Of a stretch of 64,000 nucleotides of DNA, positions 12,930 to 59,470 are shown piece by piece. How positions within the stretch are numbered: the stretch's first letter is position 1; each line of letters begins with the position of its first letter. A program made the position numbers and the translations under genes. Under the pieces are notes generated by a model. The model saw only the letters and a program-made list of their open reading frames with translations. It was not told where the DNA came from and searched no databases. The DNA comes from Marinobacter sediminicola (GTDB taxonomy: Bacteria > Pseudomonadota > Gammaproteobacteria > Pseudomonadales > Oleiphilaceae). The DNA lies in assembly GCF_031157525.1 (NCBI RefSeq), contig NZ_JAVIXR010000002.1, positions 310,001-374,000 on the forward strand, given 5' to 3'.

Positions 12930-13036
12930 GCGATGAGGCGGATAACTCTCTGAAACACGCTGTGAATACTTCCCTGTACGCTTGGCTACGCCATCCATGG
13001 CTTCGCACAGTTTCAGAGAGTTATCCGCCCCATCGC
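12930..13036 (-). repeat. Nested inverted-repeat element with two GGA-presenting loops (copy 1)
   Basis: The arms at 12930-12956 and 13010-13036 are 27 bp with one mismatch. The 53-nt loop, read on the reverse strand (the glcE-glcF transcript), contains GCCATGGATGGC and CGTACAGGGAAGTA, each able to form a small hairpin with GGA in or near its loop. Distance between the two GGA triplets is 23 nt. GUACAGGGAAGU matches the CsrA/RsmA consensus RUACARGGAUGU at 11 of 12 positions. A second copy with different stem sequence but the same loop layout lies at 59302-59411. The role is not established: candidates are a CsrA-type binding RNA, a processing/termination structure or a mobile repeat. Confidence 0.8.
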
Positions 13037-59301: not shown

Positions 59302-59411
59302 GCCTCAGTCGGAAGAACCTTTTCAAAACTGCAGAGGGCCAAGGACGGCCCGAAACAAGCGCACATGGATGTGCTCGTAGCGTGTTTTGAAAAGGTTCTT
59401 TCGACTGAGGC
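59302..59411 (+). repeat. Nested inverted-repeat element with two GGA-presenting loops (copy 2)
   Basis: Arms of 28 bp (59302-59329 and 59384-59411) have one mismatch. The 54-nt loop contains GGGCC-AAGGAC-GGCCC and GCACA-TGGA-TGTGC, two hairpins with GGA in the loop 24 nt apart. In copy 1 (12930-13036, reverse strand) the first GGA is at the same loop position. Conserved loop text includes CAAGCG.ACA.GGA.GT...C..AGCGT. It lies in the 3' region of the DUF3015-DUF4105-hydrolase transcript in sense orientation. Confidence 0.8.
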
Positions 59412-59431
59412 CACCACCCAAGTAGGGAGAC

Positions 59432-59470
59432 AAAAAAAACCCGCCAATCCATAGGAAAGGCGGGTTTTTA
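59432..59470. terminator. Bidirectional Rho-independent terminator of pnp
   Basis: AAAAAAAACCCGCC-aatccataggaaa-GGCGGGTTTTTA has a 10-bp core stem (AAAACCCGCC / GGCGGGTTTT) and runs of A and T on both sides. It lies 15 bp after the pnp stop and also ends the rightward hydrolase transcript. Confidence 0.88.

Follow-up and report, generated by a model that had tools for sequence, protein, structure and literature searches.

CsrA control is understood as the work of a few dedicated small RNAs (sRNAs). Those of the CsrB/RsmX-Y-Z class come from few genes with promoters of their own and fold into a structured RNA that presents A(N)GGA motifs in loops or in single-stranded regions, at a spacing that suits one CsrA dimer. 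The mRNA-derived CsrA sponges, in which CsrA sites lie on parts of transcripts, are to our knowledge single cases only. Among DNA repeats, the REP, BIME and REPIN families are short intergenic palindromes of high copy number that form hairpins and occur in inverted pairs. In Alteromonas, Aln1a-c are described as CsrA-sequestering sRNAs of the CsrB/RsmX-Y-Z class (PMC5864184). Here we analysed a nested hairpin at 59302..59411 of a 64,000-nucleotide stretch of Marinobacter sediminicola DNA (the window; contig NZ_JAVIXR010000002.1, positions 310,001 to 374,000), which resembles the first of these systems in its motifs and their spacing, the second in carrying CsrA-like sites and the third in being an intergenic hairpin repeat of high copy number with inverted pairs, and differs from all of them.

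The sRNAs of the CsrB/RsmX-Y-Z class carry more sites each, whereas the hairpin belongs to a family of dozens of dispersed two-site copies with a long variable stem, no promoter signal and no Rfam match. Unlike the mRNA-derived sponges, it is a multi-copy family that does not keep to the sense strand of genes. In contrast to REP, BIME and REPIN, the family conserves its tip and varies its stem from copy to copy, and the genome yielded no Y1 transposase; a conserved tip on a free stem is the reverse of the usual logic of palindromic repeats. The comparisons described below lend good support to a structured, covarying, CsrA-like element. That the family is a dispersed set of RNA hairpins offering paired sites to CsrA is a reading to which we give slightly better than an even chance.

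A family of hairpins with a conserved tip

The two arms of the stem, at 59302..59329 and 59384..59411 on the + strand, are 28 nt each and 96% complementary, with 54 nt between them. The geometry proposed in an earlier note on this DNA (28-bp arms with one mismatch, a 54-nt loop and two GGA hairpins) was borne out, the mismatch being a G·T, the only non-Watson-Crick pair. The + strand of 59302-59411 has a predicted folding energy of -67.7 kcal/mol, compared with -30.3 +/- 3.3 for 200 shuffles (z -11.4; 0/200 as good). In the predicted fold, tip hairpin 1 (GGGCC-AAGGAC-GGCCC, 59336..59351, +) and tip hairpin 2 (CAC-AUGGAU-GUG, 59361..59374, +) display the six-base loops AAGGAC and AUGGAU, with CANGGANG at 59340-59347 and 59364-59371, respectively. 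The first hairpin is placed by the fold and by motif counts, the second by the fold. Among 55 aligned copies, tip hairpin 2 has C-G as its outermost closing pair in 31 and U-A in the other 24.

A second copy in the window, with a type A tip, lies on the - strand at 12930..13036, between genes that the earlier note called glcE and glcF, and has 27-nt arms with 53 nt between them. We confirmed that the first GGA stands at tip position 14 in both window copies and that CAAGCG.ACA.GGA is common to them, while their stem sequences differ and both pair. The names glcE, glcF, pnp and rpoH are provisional labels, given by the earlier note or by us, and do not rest on a family search.

The family extends far beyond the window. 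A covariance model built from 55 sequences and run against the same genome, where 150 of 1191 candidates were scored so that the copy count is a lower bound, returned 50 rows with at least 42 copies, of which one is truncated where its contig ends; the remaining rows were 5 fragments at contig ends, two echoes on the reverse strand and a single weak additional match. A BLAST search with the element gave 39 places in this genome, some repeating one place. The same tip recurs dozens of times across the genome, and the element is not a product of chance. The original observation of a recurrent structured element holds, with a predicted fold and relatives in other genomes, and the family is larger than had been reported. 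Seven other Marinobacter genomes gave 67, 62, 82, 46, 11, 106 and 6 matches. The element was found in 34/185 Gammaproteobacteria genomes of a class sample (26/162 of those at least 90% complete) and in 17/299 genomes of a phylum sample searched with strict filters at which weak matches are lost, all 17 in Gammaproteobacteria. Among named relatives of the neighbouring protein, the best come from Marinobacter.

No Rfam family reached its gathering score in the window, and in a permissive search of the element none did so either (rsmX scored 18.6 bits vs 56). There were no exact matches to one pattern of the element in viral contigs and no match in plasmids. The literature, searched through titles and abstract openings with few subscription papers covered, gave no description of such a hairpin family. 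The RsmZ model was over its cut-off in 0/19 genomes, this one included, a search that was not extended genome-wide to other CsrA decoy families.

The seed set had been found by a rule requiring two ANGGA, which makes the invariance of the loops in its alignment partly a matter of construction. Fairer counts come from a motif-blind repeat scan and from a set of 124 arm families whose detection required one site or more. Of the 71 long inverted repeats that the motif-blind scan gave at the first loci, two A.GGA. hexaloops, each closed by three pairs, occur in 58, one in 6 and none in 7; by eye, these last 7 are other repeats or a terminator. The 124 arm families, from which 22 inverted repeats without a site had been set aside, contain exactly two CANGGANG in 110 cases, one together with CAGGANG in 4, one in 9 and three in 1. 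In an earlier set of 119 families, the spacing between the two sites is 22-25 nt in 108 of the 109 two-site families measured, and all four bases occur at both free N positions of CANGGANG. Only 0.015% of shuffled cores reach two such sites. The consensus for Rsm proteins is given as A/UCANGGANGU/A (PMC6849547). Selection of CsrA ligands in vitro (SELEX) is reported to have yielded RUACARGGAUGU, mostly in six-base loops, and a CsrA dimer to bridge sites over 10-63 nt with an optimum above 18 nt (PMC7652899). The tip loops match the published Rsm/CsrA consensus, and their spacing is within reach of one CsrA dimer.

Long-tip variants of 133-136 nt were also observed, two in the same genome (L019 and L021, both absent from the covariance-model rows) and the others in three other Marinobacter (L048, L055 and L075); a second palindrome inside tip hairpin 2 removes its GGA site. 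L056, L061 and L074 carry another kind of 30-bp hairpin repeat, which is of the GGGGTCAGATGAAAGCTTTCATCTGACCCC type.

Stem pairing and the probable working strand

The alignment of copies revealed a covarying stem and a conserved tip, the combination that the earlier note had proposed as a check. Across 55 elements, standard pairs fill 99.3% of 1643 pair cells and both sides have changed in 480 cells; such changes occur at 23/24 stem pair positions. The covariation score is 0.778, compared with 0.194 after shuffling and at most 0.183 with the partners slid. Some stem positions favour one letter, chiefly those adjoining the tip. The arms differ in every copy within the genome. Arm length, taken from whichever member of a family was found first, is 18-33 nt in 121/124 arm families and peaks at 27-28.

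Compared with the nearest relative, mean identity is 0.89 in the flank, 0.83 in the arm and 0.92 in the core (arm below flank, p 0.06), for the 22 of 44 elements that were usable, 19 having no partner in the fetched set and 3 being dropped for a poor flank. The arms thus evolve at about the rate of the flank or somewhat faster, and hypervariable stems were rejected on the same comparison. Since the inner arms are specific to the locus while tip types vary between species at one locus, the family reads as vertically inherited stems with gene conversion of the tips. At the rpoH locus (L213, L214 and L215), the left arm of our genome has TCT and its right arm matches CTT, whereas both arms read CTT in the nearest relative and both read TCT in another species; this pattern suggests multi-base copying from arm to arm or recombination between strains. 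At L218, also 3' of rpoH, the core is inverted relative to L217 within largely the same arms and the first GGA loop is lost (ATGAAT), apparently through recombination between the arms.

Imperfect pairs in the stem point to one strand. If the hairpin were kept only as DNA, transitions would be expected to produce G·T and A·C in equal numbers. On the GGA strand, the mismatches of the 124-family set are G·U in 129 cases, A·C in 22 and of other kinds in 72 (G·U vs A·C, p 1e-19). An event was counted once per position and letter combination within a family, whose arms are 70% or more alike, and the events are not fully independent. A smaller set had earlier given 73 G·U vs 15 A·C. The excess recurs by gene context, which was assigned only to elements with at least 300 bases of flank: 63 vs 9 between convergent genes, 22 vs 3 in sense and 34 vs 6 in antisense; the 4 vs 1 in divergent context are too few to judge. 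Its presence in all the contexts judged suggests that the GGA strand is under selection, or subject to a strand-specific process, regardless of the neighbouring genes. The functional form of the GGA strand seems to be a folded single strand, and RNA is the simplest reading because this strand carries the CsrA motif.

Genomic setting and competing explanations

The element begins 17 nt past the stop codon of a 292-codon hydrolase-like gene and is separate from an intrinsic-terminator-like hairpin at 59431..59470 (strand not assigned; recognised from sequence and inverted repeat), which lies between it and a convergent downstream gene that we take to be pnp from its sequence. At least 39/75 Marinobacter loci have an element 3' of the hydrolase gene (L105 stops at the gene). 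Before glcF, 10/30 loci have a sense copy, one of these having an antisense copy as well. For rpoH, which is present in 60/61 genomes, the downstream region was compared at 30 Marinobacter loci: 16 carry an antisense copy, 1 a sense copy, and none was seen in 13. None of the 42 copies placed in context in our genome is inside a called gene. With gene directions from simple open reading frame scoring, 16 are convergent, 11 sense, 9 antisense, 5 divergent and 1 at a contig end.

Seven contigs of the assembly (C1, C2, C6, C7, C11, C37 and C40) terminate within an element, an indication that the assembly breaks at these hairpins. A weak shared motif of about CWCCAAAGT stands a few bases 3' of the right arm in the copies of our genome. 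A motif search to the right of the stem returned the 8-base gCACCAAA with a log-likelihood of 39.8 vs at most 24.2 in 6 shuffles, and the controls were also slightly above their shuffles (left flank 25.9 vs 20.9; a distant stretch 26.6 vs 23.4). Cargo between inverted copies was considered and rejected, as the three pairs in our genome enclose, by eye, ordinary-looking chromosomal genes.

The main rival to paired CsrA sites on RNA is a REP-like selfish DNA hairpin, which we consider unlikely. The GGA strand would fold as single-stranded DNA, a putative enzyme would recognise its loops and copy it into intergenic sites, and the match to CsrA would be a coincidence. High copy number, exclusively intergenic placement, patchy spread across the class and a strand asymmetry independent of genes all suit such an element. 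So does the arrangement of close copies: in the Marinobacter rows tabulated, copies less than 300 bp apart are head-to-head in 12/12 pairs. These pairs, 63-173 bp apart, are found in G237, G212 and G206 (L372-L383), with no other arrangement below 300 bp in those rows; the rule is not universal, since outside Marinobacter G425, G498, G257 and G067 have same-direction neighbours. In G425 (C1:93800-96300, L437), six same-direction copies about 227 bp apart have a TGTAGGAGCGGCTTCAGCCGCGATAAG palindromic repeat interspersed among them. The amplified, nearly identical copies of G067 also favour selfish DNA; they include arms and flanks and lie on many short contigs (L169-L186), as would a recently spread version within a larger repeat. 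A further point in favour of selfish DNA is that Y1 transposase (PF01797) is present in 27/34 element-bearing class genomes vs 122/185 overall. Against it, the transposase had 0 matches in our own genome (G000), which is 99.9% complete. Selfish DNA also sits poorly with the unconserved stem sequence, with the lack of a target-duplication signal (left-right flank similarity, p 0.26) and with the positions that vary in the loops, which are the two N of CANGGANG. Nor is there a clear replication-strand bias in two single-contig genomes, with the terminus assumed opposite dnaA: 52 vs 44 (98/106 matches listed, 96 used) and 16 vs 27 (43/46). A miniature inverted-repeat transposable element (MITE) or transposon with terminal repeats was rejected because the arms in our genome all differ and target duplication is lacking, the near-identical copies of G067 notwithstanding; the earlier note had named inverted terminal repeats as the finding that would overturn it, and the same two observations dispose of them.

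The earlier note itself favoured a CsrA/RsmA sponge trimmed from the mRNA 3' end of the upstream gene. Both window copies do follow the direction of the preceding gene, as it had stated, and 27/42 copies are likewise preceded by a gene of the same direction. The family at large does not keep to this placement: sense and antisense copies are about equally frequent among codirectional genes (11 vs 9), the antisense families have the same G·U bias, and more than half of the rpoH loci carry the antisense copy. Release from mRNA 3' ends does not fit because antisense copies exist, and we regard this version of the sponge as improbable.

A general protector of mRNA ends or an RNase III site, in which the long stem acts and the tip is incidental, would account for the long near-perfect stem, for the intergenic placement and for the many copies between convergent genes (16/42). 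Such a role makes no demand on the tip, but it is the tip that stays constant while the stem sequence varies freely, and the tip is missing only from those 7/71 motif-blind repeats that look by eye like something else; we think this explanation very improbable.

A functionless DNA palindrome, in which one arm is copied into the other and the tip is homogenised by gene conversion, is the least probable of the explanations: it would suit the switching of tip types at fixed loci, the core inverted between the same arms and the frequent transversions among compensated changes (pnp, 236 transitions and 191 transversions, or 191/427; rpoH, 243 and 98, or 98/341; pairwise counts, non-independent), which as counts do not point to RNA selection in particular, but arm copying is strand-symmetric and predicts equal G·U and A·C, against the 129 vs 22 observed.

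Proposed paired CsrA sites and their possible meaning

The reading as paired CsrA sites on RNA would work as follows. The GGA strand would be transcribed at each site, and the RNA would fold so that the conserved tip, about 54 nt in length, is held up by a stem of about 28 bp and nearly free sequence. One CsrA/RsmA dimer could then grip both CANGGANG hairpin loops of the tip, which are separated by 22-25 nt. Together, and irrespective of how the genes around them are oriented, the many copies would occupy part of the cell's CsrA, either as decoys or as places where CsrA lands locally, and this binding would matter to the cell. CsrA binding combined with decoy action is, we infer, the best available mechanism. 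CsrA (PF02599) is present in 31/34 element-bearing class genomes and in 26/26 of those at least 90% complete.

Several observations weigh against paired CsrA sites on RNA. Three element-bearing genomes have no CsrA (75, 88 and 67% complete), and co-occurrence says little because CsrA is near-ubiquitous, being found in 146/162 near-complete genomes anyway. Codirectional genes impose no orientation preference on the element, and the 11 vs 9 split leaves the source of RNA unclear for antisense copies. No promoter signal was found upstream (up-sense vs up-antisense, p 0.69; no sigma-70-like enrichment), and the up-sense promoter score is even below that of down-antisense (p 0.027). TTTT occurs within 12 nt past the stem in 3/119 only, a count on which an intrinsic terminator was also rejected. 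Most SELEX hairpins are reported to have at most 4 contiguous pairs (PMC7652899), and some tip hairpins here are longer. The GGA strand of the copy at 12930-13036 is not the better folding one, the other strand folding no worse (z -8.5 and -9.5 against shuffles, respectively). The mismatch asymmetry would also be in keeping with a hairpin of single-stranded DNA or with strand-biased mutation, such as deamination of a strand that is often single-stranded. Finally, gene conversion could keep the tip without function, as tip types switch at fixed loci.

More tentatively still, and with a probability that we would place below even, a mobile or once-mobile repeat may have made the intergenic space of many Gammaproteobacteria a distributed CsrA buffer. 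A genome would hold from a few to more than 100 two-site decoys, each expressed whatever the surrounding genes, and copy number, not one sRNA gene, would set the level of free CsrA. More generally, a repeat family of class-wide spread whose free-sequence stems display near-ideal sites for a CsrA dimer, with as many as 106 matches in a single genome, would titrate a global regulator through a different architecture, and intergenic repeats of this type would gain a testable function.
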